Shown here piece after piece: positions 38,674 to 49,111 of a stretch of DNA of 53,168 nt (its first letter is position 1; every line of letters begins with the position of its first letter). The DNA comes from Methanocalculus natronophilus (lineage in GTDB: Archaea; Halobacteriota; Methanomicrobia; Methanomicrobiales; Methanocorpusculaceae): contig NZ_JBCEXH010000010.1 in the NCBI RefSeq assembly GCF_038751955.1, positions 1 through 53,168 of the forward strand, in the 5' to 3' direction. Both the position numbers and the translations under genes were made by a program. Under the pieces are notes generated by a model. That model searched no databases, was not told the DNA's origin, and saw nothing but the letters and a program-made list of their open reading frames with translations.

Positions 38674-39119
38674 TCTGGTTCTTCTCCTCCGTTTTTGAAG
38701 GGTGGGTGTATACCCCCTCTATGTTCACAACATATGGTGGTTGGTGCATACCTGCATGCAAGAGCAATGCACGTACGCAGTGACGATTATCAGGAGTGTC
38801 CCCCACCGCCCGCTTGCCCCGTCCGCACGTGCTTCGCAAGGGGTGTTGAGCCGGGTGATGGTTGAGCGGGGTGTACCGGGTTGCCGCATGTGCTTCCAGT
38901 TGCTCCCAATGATCCCGGTTATTGCATCGTGTTCTCTACCCGGGATCTTTTCCCACGCTCCGAAGAATGCAGGAAAAACCCTCGTTATCAGAATTCTGGA
39001 AAATGGGTCTGATAATCCTTCTTTTGAGCTTCTGCCCTGACAGCTTCTATCCTGCCATTCTCGTTTCCCAAAGCAGCTGTCAAAACAATCAAATATTGTT
39101 CTCTCCCAAAGGAAGGATT
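38674..39119. other. 446-base intergenic region holding repeat copy D
   Basis: No credible gene lies here. The left part (38674-38786) has self-complementary patches around TGCATACCTGCATGCA. Most of the rest is the minus-strand copy of the dispersed repeat described separately. GGAAGG at about 39111-39116 is the ribosome-binding site of the next gene. Confidence 0.6.
38787..39005 (-). repeat. Dispersed repeat copy D (empty-site form)
   Basis: Read on the minus strand this matches the other three copies. It runs through a GGGAAAAGATCCCGGGTAGA block (38934-38953), an AGCACATGC site (38887-38895), GCGGCAACCCGG, then CACCCCTTGCGAAGCA and TGCGGACGGGG. It lacks the 155-bp insert found in copies A and B. 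Open frames across it are not preserved between copies, so it is taken as non-coding. Confidence 0.75.
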
Positions 39120-41719: not shown

Positions 41720-43663
41720 ATGGACTCACGATGGTTCTTTCCCCTTCTTCTTTTTCTCTGCTTCATAGCAGCCCAGCCGGTTGCTGCAGCAGATGGTCAC
41801 GCTGTACAGCCAATCGGATTAGCAGACCCTGACGGGGTCGAGGCGTTTCTTGATGATATCATGCCTGCAAACCTCGCCCTCTACAATGTGCCGGGGGCAA
41901 CGGTTGCGGTTGTGAAAGACGGAGAACTCGTGGTTGCGAAAGGCTATGGGTATAGTGATATCGAAAACCGGGTACCCGTGGATGCGGATGACACGCTCTT
42001 TCGGATCGGATCGATCACAAAACTCTTCACCTGGACAGCGGTGATGCAGCTGCAGTCTGAGGGGAGACTCGATCTCGATACTGATGTAAACCAGTACCTG
42101 AAGGATTTCCAGGTACCAGACACCTATCCCGGCGAGCCGGTCACGATGCGCCACCTGATGACGCATACCGCCGGTTTTGAAGAGTGTACTGTCATGATGC
42201 AGGTTGAAAGCGTGGATGACCTGATCTCGTTTCGGGATTATTGTGCAGACTACATGCCCGCACGGGTCAGTCCACCCGGAACACTTACCTCCTATTCAAA
42301 TTACGGCACCACGCTTGCAGCAGTTGTTGTGGAGGATATCACCGGCATTCCCTTTGAAGCGTATCTCGATGAGCAGATAATCATACCCCTCAGGATGGAC
42401 AGTACCAGTATCAGGGAGGATCTCCCCCCTGAAAGGGCTGAGCGGCTCTCGAAGGGATATGTCTTCGGCAGGAAGAACAGTGAAGCCCCGGATTTTATCT
42501 TTACTATCGGCCCTGCCGGATCCATCAGCTCAAATGCACCCGATATGGCGGCATTTCTTGCAATGCATATGATGGGAGGAACACGTAATGATGTCACAAT
42601 CCTCCCCCGTGATACAGCAGAGCTGATGCATGCAGAGGCGTTCACCAATGATCCACGCGGCTCAGGGGTCTGCCTTGGATTCTATGAGATGCATGTCAAT
42701 AACCATCGGTTGATCGGCCATGGCGGCGATACCCTCACCTTCCACTCACTGCTCATGTATATTCCAGAAGAGCAGGCCGGCTTCTTCGTCTCATACAACA
42801 GTGTCGGCGGGGCGACGGCAAGAAATGATCTCTTATTCGCCTTTATGGATCACTATTACCCGGCTGAAGAGGTGACGATCCCTGATCCGGACCCAGCTCT
42901 TGTTCCCGATCTCAGGATATATGCCGGAACCTATGAGACAAACCGGCGCAACATTGCACACTTTGAGAAGTATCACGGCGAGCGATCGCCGATTGTGGTT
43001 TCTGCCTCTGGTGCTGGGACACTCCTCATAGATTACGGAAGCACCACCCTTGAGTACGTAATGATCGAGCCCGATATCTTCGCGCTGCCTGATGGCGATA
43101 CACAGGGCACCGGGAACCTCATCTTCAATGTGGGCGATTCCGGGAGAGCGGACTATTTTGTCTATAGCAATGTCCCGATCTTTGCGTTTGAGCGGCTTGC
43201 CTGGTATGACACCCCGGCATTTCTTGGGAATGTGTTTACAATAGCAGGGATTATCCTTGCGACCGTCCTCCTCTGGCCGCTTCTCGCCGCATTCAGGGTG
43301 AGTCATGCCATTCCTGATCCCTATGCAAACAAGAATGCAACCCGTGCACGGTGGATAGCAGGTACAGCTGCACTCTCACTCCTTGGATTTGTCCTTATAC
43401 TCGTGCCAAAGGTAATTGATGATGCGGCACTGGCAGCAACATACCTACAGAGTCCTGTTCCACCATTTGAATTTTCAATCGTCCTGACTGTGCCGGTATT
43501 GTCTCTTCTCCTGACGCTCCTAACAGTTGGTTTTGTTGCTTTTGCCTGGAAAGAGGCATACTGGAGCCGCCTGCACAGAATCCATTACACACTTGTTGCA
43601 GCCGCCGCAGTTGCGATGCTCTGGTGGATAATCTCCTGGAATCTCTGGGTATTTTCACTCTGA
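41720..43663 (+). CDS. Beta-lactamase-like (class C/serine hydrolase) protein with C-terminal membrane segments
   Basis: This is a 647-residue secreted or membrane hydrolase. Residues 1-24 are a signal peptide ending A-A-A. The penicillin-binding-protein/class C beta-lactamase fold (about 35-385) has all three motifs: S98-I-T-K101 (nucleophile), Y192-S-N194 and H334-G-G336. A beta domain (about 390-490) follows and then four membrane segments to the C-terminus. Archaea lack murein, so the substrate may be a D-amino-acid peptide, ester or surface polymer; this is inference. Confidence 0.88.
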   Translation: MDSRWFFPLLLFLCFIAAQPVAAADGHAVQPIGLADPDGVEAFLDDIMPANLALYNVPGATVAVVKDGELVVAKGYGYSDIENRVPVDADDTLFRIGSITKLFTWTAVMQLQSEGRLDLDTDVNQYLKDFQVPDTYPGEPVTMRHLMTHTAGFEECTVMMQVESVDDLISFRDYCADYMPARVSPPGTLTSYSNYGTTLAAVVVEDITGIPFEAYLDEQIIIPLRMDSTSIREDLPPERAERLSKGYVFGRKNSEAPDFIFTIGPAGSISSNAPDMAAFLAMHMMGGTRNDVTILPRDTAELMHAEAFTNDPRGSGVCLGFYEMHVNNHRLIGHGGDTLTFHSLLMYIPEEQAGFFVSYNSVGGATARNDLLFAFMDHYYPAEEVTIPDPDPALVPDLRIYAGTYETNRRNIAHFEKYHGERSPIVVSASGAGTLLIDYGSTTLEYVMIEPDIFALPDGDTQGTGNLIFNVGDSGRADYFVYSNVPIFAFERLAWYDTPAFLGNVFTIAGIILATVLLWPLLAAFRVSHAIPDPYANKNATRARWIAGTAALSLLGFVLILVPKVIDDAALAATYLQSPVPPFEFSIVLTVPVLSLLLTLLTVGFVAFAWKEAYWSRLHRIHYTLVAAAAVAMLWWIISWNLWVFSL

Positions 43664-43905
43664 GACTCGCTTCTCTTTTTATTTTTCGACTAAACCCGGA
43701 TAGTCCGGGATAATCCGGGATAATCCAGAATAATCCAGGATAGTCCAGGATCACAGGGGGATTGAACCCTATGCAACACCCTTCTCGTGAAACCTGTGTA
43801 CCATCCTTTGGCAGTCCATTCGACCTTTTGCCTTCGTAAGCCAGGCACGACACAGGCGATACACTTATGCGATTATACCTGCCTCTCTTCTGCTAGGGAG
43901 GCCTG
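43664..43905. other. Gap with tandem repeats; no gene
   Basis: Besides a 10-base tandem repeat (43691-43750), a T-rich stretch CTTCTCTTTTTATTTTT (about 43670-43686) directly follows the hydrolase stop and may terminate transcription. The remainder to 43905 shows nothing identifiable. Confidence 0.45.
43691..43750. repeat. 10-bp tandem repeat, six copies
   Basis: Six units of about TAATCCGGGA/TAGTCCAGGA run head to tail with substitutions at two or three positions. The core GGATAATCC is nearly palindromic (GGAT-A-ATCC), so the array could form alternating small hairpins. Confidence 0.85.
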
Positions 43906-44589
43906 ATGATGCCAAAGAGAGGAGCAAGAGACGAGCTTGCAGACAGAATCAGAACTGATGCCACCGCAGGTGCTGACGGGCTGATCCGGATGCAGTCCTT
44001 TATACACCATACTGCAGATTCGGGACTGCTTGACCGGTGTGGATCAGTATTTGCTGAGCATTTCAGGCCCGGAAAGCCGACAAAGATCCTGACTGGCGAG
44101 GTGAGCGGGATCCTGGCAGCCCTGCCAGCGGGCATCCATCTGGACATCCCTGTCCTGATCGCACGGAAAGAGGTTCCAAAGACGTTTCCAGCCAACCTGA
44201 TCGAGGAGAAGGTCATATCCAGGACAAAGGGAAGAGAGAGCTCCCTCTCCATCATCTCCGATCACCTGAATGGGGATGACCGGGTGCTGATCATCGACGA
44301 TGTGCTTGCCAGGGGAGAGACGGTTGCTGCATTGATCAGGCTCGCAGTCCGGGCAGGTGCAGAGGTTGTCGGGGTCGGGGTGCTTGTTGAGAAGGTGTAT
44401 GAAGGGGGAAGGCAACAGATCCGGCCGGAGATTCCTGTGCATGCCCTCTGCTCGATCCAATCGGTTGAGGGAGGGGTGATTCAGATCGCAGACGACACTG
44501 CGTACGACACGGCATACGACACTGCAAACAATAGCACAGACAATAGCACAGACGACATTACACACAACACTGCACCCGATTCTTCATAA
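43906..44589 (+). CDS. Phosphoribosyltransferase (adenine/xanthine type) with a repeat-encoded C-terminal tail
   Basis: This 227-residue purine phosphoribosyltransferase-like protein has the PRPP motif V-L-I-I-D-D-V-L-A-R-G-E-T near residues 125-137. Upstream is I-L-T-G-E-V-S-G-I and A-R-K-E-V-P, matching Apt/Xpt-type proteins that salvage a purine base using PRPP. It may start at 43906 or the second Met. Residues about 196-227 are a low-complexity tail (D-T-A-Y, N-S-T-D units) encoded by a 12-bp tandem repeat and are probably not part of the enzyme. The exact base is unknown. Confidence 0.85.
   Translation: MMPKRGARDELADRIRTDATAGADGLIRMQSFIHHTADSGLLDRCGSVFAEHFRPGKPTKILTGEVSGILAALPAGIHLDIPVLIARKEVPKTFPANLIEEKVISRTKGRESSLSIISDHLNGDDRVLIIDDVLARGETVAALIRLAVRAGAEVVGVGVLVEKVYEGGRQQIRPEIPVHALCSIQSVEGGVIQIADDTAYDTAYDTANNSTDNSTDDITHNTAPDSS
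44494..44577. repeat. 12-bp tandem repeat inside the phosphoribosyltransferase gene
   Basis: Seven 12-base units begin with GACACTGCGTAC, GACACGGCATAC, GACACTGCAAAC and then drift to AATAGCACAGAC (twice) and related sequences. In frame they encode 4-residue repeats (D-T-A-Y, D-T-A-Y, D-T-A-N, N-S-T-D, N-S-T-D, D-I-T-H, N-T-A-P) just before the stop. Confidence 0.9.
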
Positions 44590-44711
44590 CCACATCAGGT
44601 GCCAGGAAAGGTGTCAGTTGTCCAGATCATTGTCAGGTGCGAGACCATTGTAGTTACACAGACAAGTGTCAGTCACCAGTACCAGTGTCAGGTGCCAGAA
44701 CAAGTATCAGT

Positions 44712-44972
44712 CATCAGGAGTGACGAAAAGCAGCTGCGGCGCGGGTATCGGGGGGCGGGGTCAGCGATAGGGATCAGGATGACAGAGCTGATACACCCTT
44801 GCTCATCAGAGCAACCTGAAAGGCGATTCCGCAGGAATCGGGGTGGTATCTGCTTCTGGCAGCCCCCGGAGCATTCCCGCCCCTCCCGCGCCAGCATCTG
44901 CGGCAACCCGACTCAACCTCCCTTGCGAAGCACTTGCGGACGGGGGAAGGGGCGGTTGGGGGGGTTATCTGA
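44712..44972 (+). repeat. Dispersed repeat copy A (carries the insert)
   Basis: Shared with copies B, C and D are ATCAGGAG..., AGCAGCTGC, then after the insert AGCATCTGC, GGCAACCCG, CCCTTGCGAAGCA, TGCGGACGGG, GGGGCGGTTGGGG and TTATCTGA. Copy A lacks the upstream GGGAAAAGATCCC block seen in the others. Confidence 0.8.
44738..44892 (+). mobile_element. 155-bp MITE-like insert in repeat copy A
   Basis: The insert is bounded by inverted ends GGCGCGGG...GGGGGGCGGGG (left) and CCCGCCCCTCCCGCGCC (right). It is flanked exactly by direct repeats AGCAGCTGC (44729-44737) and AGCATCTGC (44893-44901), 8 of 9 identical. Inside is a 35-base core (44796-44830) identical to the one in copy B, holding the perfect hairpin TTGCTC-ATCA-GAGCAA, followed by CGATTCC-GCA-GGAATCG. 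It has no transposase. Confidence 0.75.
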
Positions 44973-45175
44973 ATCCTCTCCATAACGCTAATCACGAAGA
45001 TATTCCTGAAGTCTGAGGAACATATGGGAAAAGATCCCGATAGAGAACCCGATGCTACAGCCGAATTATCAGGAGAGACTGAAGCATCTGCGGCAACCCG
45101 GCTCAACAACCCCTTGCGAAGCACTTGCGGACGGGGGGAGGGGCGGTTGGGGCGGTTATCTGATACCCAATACCA
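44973..45175 (+). repeat. Dispersed repeat copy C (empty-site form)
   Basis: It contains GGGAAAAGATCCC (45026-45038), TAGAGAACC, then a single AGCATCTGC (45083-45091) with no insert, followed by GGCAACCCGG, CCCCTTGCGAAGCACTTGCG and GGGGCGGTTGGGG, ending TTATCTGATACC. Confidence 0.8.
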
Positions 45176-45258
45176 ATAACCTTCAGACATATGGAGAAGA
45201 GCCGATCGATCCTGAGATGGCTCTCCAGACCAGAGCTCTCCCGGACCCGGAAATCCCG

Positions 45259-46419
45259 TCACTCCACCTCATCGCTCTTTTGGTTCACCAGCATCATGCT
45301 GATGATAATTGCCGAGAAGACGATCTGCATCCCTGAGAGAAACAGGGTGAGTGACCAGACTGCATTTGTTATCTGGTAAAGATCACCAAATCCGCCTGCC
45401 ACCCACTCATAGATGATACCAAGCCCAATCGCGACACCACCACAGATGAGGAGGAGTCCAAGTATGAGCTCCCGCTCAAGATTGTAGTAGTGCATGAATT
45501 GTCCAATGAACCGGCTCTTATCGCTGTACCCGTGAATAACCGAGTACACTTTGATCATCACCCCCATCAGAAGAGCCTGAAGGCCGCCGATGAAGGCGAG
45601 TGCGGCAAGGATGAAGGAATGCATACTGGAGGTCTCAATATCCCCCTGCAGATAGAAGAAGAGCATCATAAAGAGGCCAAAGAAGGTGAAGACAAGGCCC
45701 GGCACAGCAATAAACGGAATCGGGCGGTAGAGGAGCATGAACCTGATATGCCGCCATCCATCCCTGAAACTGTTCAGCTTGGATGGAGCGACCCGCGGCC
45801 AGTAGGTGATCGGGACTTCACCGATACAAAGCCCCTTCTTTGCCGCTTCAATGAACATCTCAGAGGCAAACTCCATCCCTCCTGTCCTGAGGTCAAGCTG
45901 CTCAAGTGCATCTCTTTGTATCACCCGAAAGCCGCTATGAGCATCTGAGATGTCTGTATTGAAGAGCTTGTTCAAAAGCCATGTCAGGAACGGATTTCCG
46001 ATGTACTGATGCAGGCGTGGCATTGCACCGGGCCTGATCTCCCCCTTCAGGCGGGATCCAAGGACAAAATCATATCCCTCATCGATGCGCCTGACAAGTT
46101 TTGGCAGATCACGGAAGTCATAGGTATCATCAGCATCCCCTATTGCAATGTACCGTCCCCGTGCAGAGGCAAGGCCCGCAAGATATGCATTCCCATATCC
46201 GAGATAGTCAGGATGCACAACTATTGCACCAAGCGATCGTGCAATCTCTGAGGTTCTGTCTGTTGAAGAGTCAGCAATGATAATCTCTCCCACCATCCCA
46301 AGCTCTTCAAAGGCCTGATGGATCTTTTCAATACAGGATCTGATCGTCTTCTCTTCGTTGAGAGTGGGCATTACAACTGAGATATCTGGTGCAGAAAGAG
46401 ACATGGAACCTATATCCAT
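45259..46419 (-). CDS. Family 2 glycosyltransferase, dolichol-phosphate sugar synthase-like
   Basis: This is a 386-residue membrane glycosyltransferase with an N-terminal GT-A domain (about 10-225). V-V-M-P-T-L-N-E-E-K-T-I opens the fold and the metal-binding D-A-D-D-T-Y-D is near residues 95-101. H-S-G-F-R-V-I-Q-R is typical of DPM1/DPG-like enzymes. Four C-terminal membrane segments (about 230-380) follow. It likely transfers a sugar to dolichyl phosphate for surface glycans, in keeping with nearby aglB. The ATG at 46404 is an alternative start. CCATAAATACG near 46435 is a candidate TATA box. Confidence 0.9.
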   Translation of the reverse strand: MDIGSMSLSAPDISVVMPTLNEEKTIRSCIEKIHQAFEELGMVGEIIIADSSTDRTSEIARSLGAIVVHPDYLGYGNAYLAGLASARGRYIAIGDADDTYDFRDLPKLVRRIDEGYDFVLGSRLKGEIRPGAMPRLHQYIGNPFLTWLLNKLFNTDISDAHSGFRVIQRDALEQLDLRTGGMEFASEMFIEAAKKGLCIGEVPITYWPRVAPSKLNSFRDGWRHIRFMLLYRPIPFIAVPGLVFTFFGLFMMLFFYLQGDIETSSMHSFILAALAFIGGLQALLMGVMIKVYSVIHGYSDKSRFIGQFMHYYNLERELILGLLLICGGVAIGLGIIYEWVAGGFGDLYQITNAVWSLTLFLSGMQIVFSAIIISMMLVNQKSDEVE

Positions 46420-46572
46420 TTTTATTTTACCCGTATTTATGGTCTTGCTTATGCTTCAGCACAAATCCTCGCAGCATCTTCTCGGACTACCAGGACAACC
46501 CCGACGACACGGGCTACACAGACTACACAGACTATTGTAACAGAATGTTACACAGATGAATGTACAAGGACG

Positions 46573-46965
46573 CTTCTCCAAAATTCTGATCGCTTGTGTT
46601 TTTCCTGAATTCTTCGAAACGTGGGAAAAGATCCCGGGTAGAGATCCAGATGCAGCAACCACAATAATCAGGATGAGTGAAGCAGCTGCGGCGCGGGTAT
46701 AGGGGGGCGGGGTCAAGCGAAAGAGGCAGGCTGGCAGAGGTGATAAGCCCTTGCTCATCAGAGCAACCTGAAAGGCGATTCCAAAAGTTTCGGGGCATAT
46801 CTCCTCTGAAAGCCAAACGGAAGCTTTCCCGCCCCTCCCGCGCCAGCATATGCGGCCATACAGTACACCCAGTACACCCAGTACGACCATCACCCGACTC
46901 AACACCCCTTGCGAAGCATGTGCGGACGGGTCAGGGGCGGTGGGGGGGTCTTCTGACACGAGAGT
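46573..46965 (+). repeat. Dispersed repeat copy B (full length, with insert)
   Basis: This is the longest copy. The left block has TTTTTCCTGAATTCTTCG and GGGAAAAGATCCCGGGTAGA (46623-46642). AGCAGCTGC is followed by the 155-bp insert, then AGCATATGC. A small AGTACACCC tandem (46862-46887) follows, then CATCACCCGACTCAACACCC, TTGCGAAGCA, TGCGGACGGG and GGGGCGGTGGGGGGG. Confidence 0.8.
46690..46844 (+). mobile_element. 155-bp MITE-like insert in repeat copy B
   Basis: It has the same length, ends and position as the insert in copy A. GGCGCGGGTATAGGGGGGCG marks the left end and CCCGCCCCTCCCGCGCC (46828-46844) the right. Flanks are AGCAGCTGC (46681-46689) and AGCATATGC (46845-46853), 7 of 9 identical. 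The 35-base core with hairpin TTGCTCATCAGAGCAA is at 46748-46782. The rest has diverged from copy A. Confidence 0.75.
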
Positions 46966-47131
46966 ACCAGAGCCCCCTATCCAATGTAACTCCATGCCTG
47001 TCTGTGACTCTTCTACTACCAAGAAGCTTCAAGACATAAGATGAAGAGCCTGGAGCAGAAACGATACCCGGATAGAGACCAGGATACGCAAATAATTACT
47101 TATATAATCTCTCAACTCGGACTCATCTGGT

Positions 47132-49111
47132 ATGCCCCGGTTGCGGATTGTGGAGAAAGTGGGTATTCTTGCCGTCATTGTCCTTGCTGCAGTTGCACTT
47201 CGGATCCAGACGTTCCAGCAGGTCTTCACCGAGCATGGAATCTTGTTTCTTGAGTATGACCCCTACTACCATATGCGCAGAATTGCCTATTCTGCTGAAT
47301 ATTTTCCGAATTTCATCTCCTTTGACACCTATATCAATTTTCCGCGTGGCCATGCAATCGGCTGGCCCCCACTCTTTGATACCGCAATTGGAGGCGTTGC
47401 TTTCATACTCGGGCTTGGAAGCCCCTCTGTCACGCTCATCGAAACAGTCGGGGCAGTGGCACCCGTTGTAATCGGCCTTCTTCTCCTTCTCCCAATCTAC
47501 TACGCTGCCAGAGTTTTCTTTGGTGGAGAGGAGTATGGACTGGCAGCCGCCGGGATTGCCGCGATCCTCCCTGCGCATGTGCTGATCTCACTCCTTGGAT
47601 TTGTTGATCATCATGTTATGGAAACCCTTCTCCAGGCCTGCATGGTCCTTGGAGTACTACTGATTGTCCGGTGCCCTGAGAAGCTGACACTCTGGTCTCT
47701 CTTTCTGGGTGCCACCTTTCTCGCTACAATCTACTCAATTCCCTCAGCATTGATTTATATCGGGAGTATTGGGCTTTTCCTGGTCGCCATGATCATCCTC
47801 CGCCATATACGGAATCACTCATCCCGCGATCTCCTCTATGCCGGTGGAGTCGCCTTTGGCTCTGCAGGAGTTATCGCTCTCATCATCAACACCCTCTTCT
47901 TCGAAGGGTTTGTTTTTGAGCCAATACTACTCTCAGTCTTCCAGCCGGCCTTCCTCTTCCTCTGTCTTGGAGGAATAGCCGGAGCTGCCCTCCTCTCTGA
48001 TCTCCTCAGTAAACGGCCATGGCCCTGGTACATCGCCACGCTCGCCGGGATTGGAGGAGGCGGGGCCGCCCTTGTATACTTCCTCTTCCCGTCCGTCTAC
48101 AATGCGATTCTCTCAGGATTTAATTATATATTAGGCGCAGATCCGGTTTTTGGCTATATTGGCGAGGCTGCCTCCATACTCTACATCACAGGGAGCTTTT
48201 CACTGATGCCGTTCTGGGACCTCTATACTGTCCCGCTTTTCCTTGCAGTCATCGGATCGATCGTCTATTGTTCCAAAAGGGTCAAGAACAAAACCTTTGA
48301 TGATGCGGATCTTATGCTCATTCTCCTCGCACTCTTCGGCCTCATCCTCGTACTCTTCCAGACGCGGTTCCTGGATCTGCTGATTGTTCCGGTGGTGATC
48401 TGGGCATCATATGGTGCTGTTTCTCTACTTGAGGCTCTTGGCATCCGAAAGATAGGGGTGCCTGAAGAAGCTGAGAAGAAGAAGAGGAAGAAGAAGAACC
48501 GGGAGAATGAGGAGTCACTGAAGATGCAGCGTGCAGCTGGCGTTCTGGTTGCTCTTCTGATCATAATCGTTCCGACGGTACACTCGGCAGCAGGCATGAA
48601 TGAGCGGCTTCCCGGGCCTCCGTCAGACGAGAAGATTGGGGCGCTTGAGTTTCTCAAAAGTGAGACGCCCTCCCCGGGAGGCTATCATGATATGACAATG
48701 CAGCCCGACTATAGTGTCATCAGCCGCTGGGACTGGGGGAACCATATCATCTATATAGCAGAGAGACCGGTTGTGTCAAACAATTTCCAGACAGCTATCG
48801 TTGAGTCATCGCGGTTCCTGACAACGACAGACATAGAGGACGCAGAGCGGATCCTTGATCGCCGCAATGTCCGGTATGTCGTCACCCAGCACCTGACACA
48901 GGGAGAATTCACCAATTTCCTCTCCCTCGGCGGTGTCGATATCAGCACACTCACCGAGACAGAGTTCCTTGATATCGCCGGTGAATCGGTATACTTCCGG
49001 CTGCATCACGAGGGTGCAAAGACCCTCCCGCAGTTCACCCTCATCTATGAATCCCATGACGATCTGACCGGGGCAAAGGTCTTTGAGTATACCGGGTGGG
49101 CGCAGGGGTAG
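47132..49111 (+). CDS. aglB: AglB/STT3-family oligosaccharyltransferase
   Basis: This enzyme transfers lipid-linked glycan to Asn of N-x-S/T sequons on the outer face of the membrane. The 659-residue protein has the first external-loop motif E-Y-D-P-Y-Y-H-M-R at 41-49 (D43 metal ligand). About a dozen membrane segments run to residue about 445, a Lys/Glu-rich stretch lies near 450-470, one more membrane segment lies near 474-492, and a short C-terminal globular domain follows. The usual W-W-D-Y-G motif reads R-W-D-W-G near residue 532. It is shorter than many archaeal AglB proteins. Its neighbours, the GT2 transferase and two sugar dehydrogenases, support a glycan locus. Confidence 0.92.
   Translation: MPRLRIVEKVGILAVIVLAAVALRIQTFQQVFTEHGILFLEYDPYYHMRRIAYSAEYFPNFISFDTYINFPRGHAIGWPPLFDTAIGGVAFILGLGSPSVTLIETVGAVAPVVIGLLLLLPIYYAARVFFGGEEYGLAAAGIAAILPAHVLISLLGFVDHHVMETLLQACMVLGVLLIVRCPEKLTLWSLFLGATFLATIYSIPSALIYIGSIGLFLVAMIILRHIRNHSSRDLLYAGGVAFGSAGVIALIINTLFFEGFVFEPILLSVFQPAFLFLCLGGIAGAALLSDLLSKRPWPWYIATLAGIGGGGAALVYFLFPSVYNAILSGFNYILGADPVFGYIGEAASILYITGSFSLMPFWDLYTVPLFLAVIGSIVYCSKRVKNKTFDDADLMLILLALFGLILVLFQTRFLDLLIVPVVIWASYGAVSLLEALGIRKIGVPEEAEKKKRKKKNRENEESLKMQRAAGVLVALLIIIVPTVHSAAGMNERLPGPPSDEKIGALEFLKSETPSPGGYHDMTMQPDYSVISRWDWGNHIIYIAERPVVSNNFQTAIVESSRFLTTTDIEDAERILDRRNVRYVVTQHLTQGEFTNFLSLGGVDISTLTETEFLDIAGESVYFRLHHEGAKTLPQFTLIYESHDDLTGAKVFEYTGWAQG

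Follow-up and report, generated by a model that had tools for sequence, protein, structure and literature searches.

The two 155-bp segments described here are very probably parts of a folded internal cassette that is carried, swapped, and sometimes lost by two families of ISL3-type miniature elements (MITEs A and B), rather than separate jumping elements. Within these ISL3-derived MITEs of Methanocalculus, the segment would form the larger, folded part of a cassette of ~245 bp. The identity of the segment and of its carriers is well supported. Both copies lie in the analyzed window, a 53,168-nt stretch of the Methanocalculus natronophilus genome, and have exactly the length and limits at which they had been marked by the first-pass annotation (Table 1). 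They are 82% identical (E 8.9e-34 at whole-genome scale), begin with GGCGCGGG and finish with CCCGCGCC as GC-rich inverted ends, and share an identical 35-base stretch, CCCTTGCTCATCAGAGCAACCTGAAAGGCGATTCC, with the perfect hairpin TTGCTC-ATCA-GAGCAA. Imperfect 9-bp flanks of the AGCANNTGC type are present at both, with one mismatch for copy 1 (AGCAGCTGC / AGCATCTGC) and two for copy 2 (AGCAGCTGC / AGCATATGC). Copy 1 is located between two convergent genes, one phosphoribosyltransferase-like and the other for a family-2 glycosyltransferase; copy 2 lies between this same glycosyltransferase gene and an AglB/STT3 gene, which are divergent.

Table 1. Coordinates of the 155-bp domains, their flanking motifs, and the surrounding repeats in the window
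Feature	Position	Strand	Remarks
155-bp folded domain, copy 1	44738..44892	+	Stem including flanking octamers spans 44730-44901
155-bp folded domain, copy 2	46690..46844	+	
Motif 1, GCAGCTGC, left of copy 1	44730..44737	+	5' half of stem extension, not half a target duplication
Motif 2, AGCATCTGC, right of copy 1	44893..44901	+	Almost invariant among copies
Motif 1, GCAGCTGC, left of copy 2	46682..46689	+	
Motif 2, AGCATATGC, right of copy 2	46845..46853	+	
~245-bp shared core, approximate (155-bp domain and right module with motif 3, GAAGCACTTGCGGACGGGG)	44728..44968	+	Left A-MITE end unrecognisable
A-type ISL3 MITE without 155-bp domain	44971..45203	+	Left end TCCTCTCC.., right end ..TATGGAGAAGAGCC; right module with AGCATCTGC at 45083-45091; boundaries read from sequence
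A-type MITE with copy 2	46569..47050	+	Left end GACGCTTCTCCAAAATTCTGA 46569-46589 (TIR match 46572-46589); right end degenerate, tentative
A-type copy without domain	38780..39003	-	AGCACATGC at 38886-38894; right limit approximate

A sequence search detected 26 full-length copies of the segment in the 2.0-Mb genome, ~81-93% identical to copy 1; since the E values reach down to 1.6e-76, the repeat is not a product of chance. The sequence was found in six of the eight Methanocalculus genomes, with two lacking it; M. taiwanensis and M. chunghsingensis are among the carriers. Beyond the genus, 232 genomes from 40 genera of the same order yielded no convincing match; the sole other hits (21-29 bp in three genomes, E 3.5e-4 to 8.6e-4) were treated as chance. 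The cassette thus appears, from these sequence comparisons, to be restricted to Methanocalculus archaea. An exact-pattern scan of IMG/VR returned zero matches, and a viral origin was rejected on this ground. One A-type copy was observed on a contig binned as Bacteroidales (PWRF01000199.1, isolate CSSed10_80), which is probably mis-binned Methanocalculus DNA. With respect to gene context, 22 of the 47 copies with both neighbours sit between convergent genes. B-type copies are almost always found in such a position, perhaps reflecting a preference for T-rich terminators.

The first-pass annotation had described a dispersed, multi-copy, non-autonomous sequence nested in a larger repeat, and this description agrees with the genome-wide picture. 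In every copy read, the 155-bp segment is embedded in the ~245-bp common core; no copy lacking this core was found among them. On the left, every copy read runs into GAAGCANNTGC, and on the right each continues with AGCATCTGCGGC, followed by a module ending GAAGCANNTGCGGACGGGG..GGGGCGGTGGGG. One locus (L026) has the right half of the core in three tandem repeats. Two further tandem arrays were noted in the window: an 18-19-bp repeat, TGTCAGTTGCCAGACCAT, at 44612-44699, immediately before copy 1 on the side that lacks its A end, and a 10-bp unit, GGATAATCCA, in 5.4 copies at 43698-43751, downstream of a gene.

The cores are carried by two MITEs, A of ~570 bp, with ends GACTCTTCTCCAAAATTCTGA / GGTTCTTCTCCATATTTCTGA, and B of ~360 bp, with ends GCCTCCTCGCTATTTCATGTGGGTA / GGCTCTTCGCTGATTnGTATGGGTTTT. 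Both are short and multi-copy, have terminal inverted repeats (TIRs), and contain no transposase gene. A genome scan with the A-type TIR gave 17 forward and 17 reverse matches, and the reversed pattern gave none. With end calls that allow several mismatches, an A or B end could be recognised on one or both sides of 49 of the 53 cores; B ends were called on both sides of 17 cores and A ends on both sides of 13, and three cores were called chimeric, one of them (L055:12728-12976) on weak matches at either end. The 8-bp target-site duplications of these outer elements are AT-rich. They are perfect at six copies (L025, L055, L064, L142, L145, and L061) and, by eye, also at L028 (TCTTTTTT) if its right end is put at GAGCC. 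At many other copies the duplications are partial or decayed, and many A copies have no clear ones.

An RNA-like fold, which had been offered as another possible reading of the segment, is borne out by the alignment, where the 155-bp domain has a conserved branched structure with compensatory changes. The default RNAalifold consensus contained few covarying pairs and was replaced by the minimum-energy fold of copy 1. When mapped onto the alignment, this fold leaves 91.2% of cells paired versus 42-54% with the partners slid, a comparison that leans towards copy 1 and so favours the unslid version over the slid controls. Cells with a double change number 46 versus 24 after shuffling. The covariation score was exceeded in none of 500 shuffles, which leave relatedness in place; two other shuffle measures, pairs with a double change (42/500) and further pair types (144/500), were not extreme. 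The mean folding z-score is -6.8 for the + strand versus -5.6 for the - strand, and 40 of 52 copies fold better as + than as - strand when each is compared with its shuffles.

The same ISL3 MITEs might carry these hairpins passively, with the structural conservation reflecting only recent common ancestry, an explanation that disputes the structural part of the preferred reading alone. The similarity of the copies to copy 1 (~81-93%) and the relatedness retained by the shuffle control agree with it. Nevertheless, loops vary far more than stems (0.21 in unpaired versus 0.08 in paired columns, p 2e-5), one pair is represented by 16 C-G and 16 G-C and another by 28 A-U and 11 G-C, and several copies, as read from the alignment, have a small hairpin TCC..GGA in place of CC..GG. 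We regard passive hairpins as unlikely. The conserved structure would rather imply that, during the spread of the element, the folded + strand was under selection, either as RNA or in single-stranded DNA, for a putative function; on the modeled fold, an RNA role of the 155-bp domain is plausible.

The flanks of the segment were originally proposed to be 9-bp target duplications of a MITE 155 bp long, a proposal that the collected copies contradict. Left and right flanking octamers differ in 49 of 50 copies. Their centres are equal in only one (shuffling predicts 0.18, P 0.17), and GCATCTGC is almost fixed on the right side, where 47 of the 50 octamers are TC-centred. Base pairing between GCAGGTGC and GCATCTGC lengthens the terminal stem. 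In L048, a run of three related octamers, GCACGTGC, GCAGGTGC, and GTACGTGC, takes the place of the usual one immediately left of the domain at 2001. Taken alone, the 155-bp segment has no target-site duplication of its own at its ends and was not found by itself at many unrelated sites. Its ends do not act as transposon boundaries, the very outcome that the first-pass annotation had named as refuting its proposal; boundary behaviour belongs to the outer A and B repeats.

The nearby insert-less copies reported earlier are present in the window (Table 1, A-type elements without the domain), and similar A copies were found at C5:21518 and C1:104. Their interpretation as empty pre-insertion sites is improbable, as the octamer that they match alternates between left and right: the left octamer is matched at 38886 and the right one at 45083, C5:21518, and C1:104. 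Among the insert-less B copies, L158 and L159 retain the left octamer, while L160 and L162 also lack the right module. At an orthologous B locus, two Methanocalculus genomes (G004 and G006) contain the domain and a third (G007) has only its right end, a scar. Because insert-less copies match either the left or the right octamer and because of this scar, deletion is the better reading. Insert-less copies are therefore best read as deletions between short repeats, a reading not proven for every site; most of them would have arisen by deletion between short GAAGCANNTGCGG repeats, aided by the long hairpin.

Had the 155 bp (or the 245-bp core) been independently mobile, inserting at a GCANNTGC-type site, the insert-less copies would be true pre-insertion sites. 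Precise filled and insert-less versions at AGCANNTGC occur in A (45083 and 38886 in the window, C5, and C1) as well as in B (L158 and L159), the 155-bp ends are inverted, and the core resides in two otherwise unrelated MITEs, all of which fit such mobility. It is nonetheless rendered quite improbable by octamers that are unmatched within copies, by insert-less copies that match one octamer or the other as deletion predicts, by the deletion scar at the orthologous locus, and by the fact that no copy was found outside the core. These flanks carry a caution: short repeats on either side of a segment, though they resemble target duplications, may instead extend a stem and act as substrates for deletion.

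The mobility of the outer elements is tied to the ISL3 family. Complete ISL3 elements with perfect 8-bp duplications occur in other genera of the same order (L258, L259, L261, and L263), and the full ISL3 domain set is encoded in L258, L260, and L263. The left end of B matches the ends of L258 and L263 at 22 of 25 positions, and the right end of A matches L265, which adjoins an ISL3 transposase domain, at 22 of 24; A and B ends thus match ISL3 elements that encode a transposase. The earlier expectation of a transposase gene with matching inverted ends was correct as to its existence, yet the gene matches the outer A and B elements, not the 155-bp segment, and belongs to other genera of the order. 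Methanocalculus itself yielded no complete ISL3 transposase but just an open frame of 58 codons that covers the C-terminal portion of the domain, so that the helpers of A and B are deduced from relatives. The C-terminal transposase remnant of this genome lies at G000:C7:3832-3969; ~380 bp downstream of it is an A-type end that is probably part of an adjacent element. As judged from end similarity, the MITEs may have been moved in trans by an ISL3 transposase of the kind that other members of the order encode and of which this genome keeps a remnant. An IS1595 transposase was represented in the genus only by a fragment with a stop, in G004, with no matching end pair seen around it; IS1595 was set aside as the putative helper in favour of ISL3, whose ends match. 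Another genus of the order (G095) also has elements with B-like ends but other interiors. The elements observed there (L243, L251, L254, L256, and L257) are GC-rich and mosaic, and L243 has a 391-bp inverted pair.

The ISL3-matching ends together with the perfect 8-bp duplications show that A and B elements transposed, which bears on the proposal that the entire element represents a family of conserved non-coding RNA genes that serve the host, multiplied by duplication and only incidentally bounded by transposon-like ends. The branched fold, which is conserved, has compensatory changes, and is stronger on the + strand, a common locus at which both G003 and G006 have the element, and the 22 of 47 copies between convergent genes would suit such a family. 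Against the evidence of transposition, the absence of the element from two of the eight genus genomes, and the lack of any Rfam match up to E 1 over 43600-47200, which also led us to reject a known RNA family, this proposal is highly improbable.

ISL3-derived MITEs that share a cassette appear to have exchanged it repeatedly. A and B carriers are intermixed on the core tree, which requires a minimum of 10 A/B changes; the grouping of all B cores in one clade is rejected (p-AU 1e-75). In one copy (L142), an intact B element flanked by a perfect duplication encloses a core of the A lineage, and the switch falls at the edges of that core. Since A and B cores are intermixed on the tree and this B element carries an A-lineage core, the core is viewed as a cassette that passes from one MITE to another, probably through recombination. 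A and B ends would trade it by homologous recombination or gene conversion inside this common stretch; we infer that such exchange in the sole shared sequence is the simplest cause, and chimeric end calls fit single crossovers. How the cassette came to be common to A and B is itself deduced from these patterns, and independent insertion at GAAGCANNTGCGG may be an alternative. It seems to us highly improbable that the core is a structured-RNA cassette which entered two ISL3 MITE families more than once via a dedicated route, such as RNA-guided transfer or insertion directed to GAAGCANNTGCGG sites, and not by ordinary recombination.

Two MITE families with different ends that share and swap one folded cassette separate the evolution of ends from that of cargo, here in an archaeal genus for which the searched literature holds no such description. 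This literature yielded no paper on the ISL3 family with MITEs in archaea and only general papers on MITEs, BOX elements, and TIMEs. If the cassette is transcribed, the ~26 copies that lie close to genes might influence termination or the stability of mRNAs.

Among known systems, ISL3-family insertion sequences and MITEs derived from them are alike in their ends (GGCTCTTC..), their AT-rich 8-bp duplications, and the end matches given above (22/25 for B and 22/24 for A), whereas A and B elements have no transposase and combine two end types with one internal folded cassette. TIMEs are Tn3-derived non-autonomous mini-elements of mosaic structure that mobilise other DNA (PMC4133298); both they and the A/B elements are non-autonomous and mosaic, but TIMEs belong to the Tn3 family and are without the swapping of an internal folded cassette. 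Correia elements and NIMEs of Neisseria are composite, with an internal sequence of up to 156 bp bounded by inverted repeats (PMC3049150); by description, they resemble A/B elements in the bounded internal sequence and composite build, with unrelated ends and host. BOX elements of Streptococcus pneumoniae are modular small interspersed repeats with a strong predicted RNA fold, an internal module that is sometimes absent, and ends that somewhat resemble an insertion sequence (PMC3049150). By contrast with BOX, no regular tandem multiplication of the 155 bp was seen. Judged from its description, the BOX system appears similar to A/B elements in its modular repeat, dispensable internal module, strong predicted fold, and IS-like ends, while the latter are archaeal, have ISL3 ends, and share one cassette between two end families.
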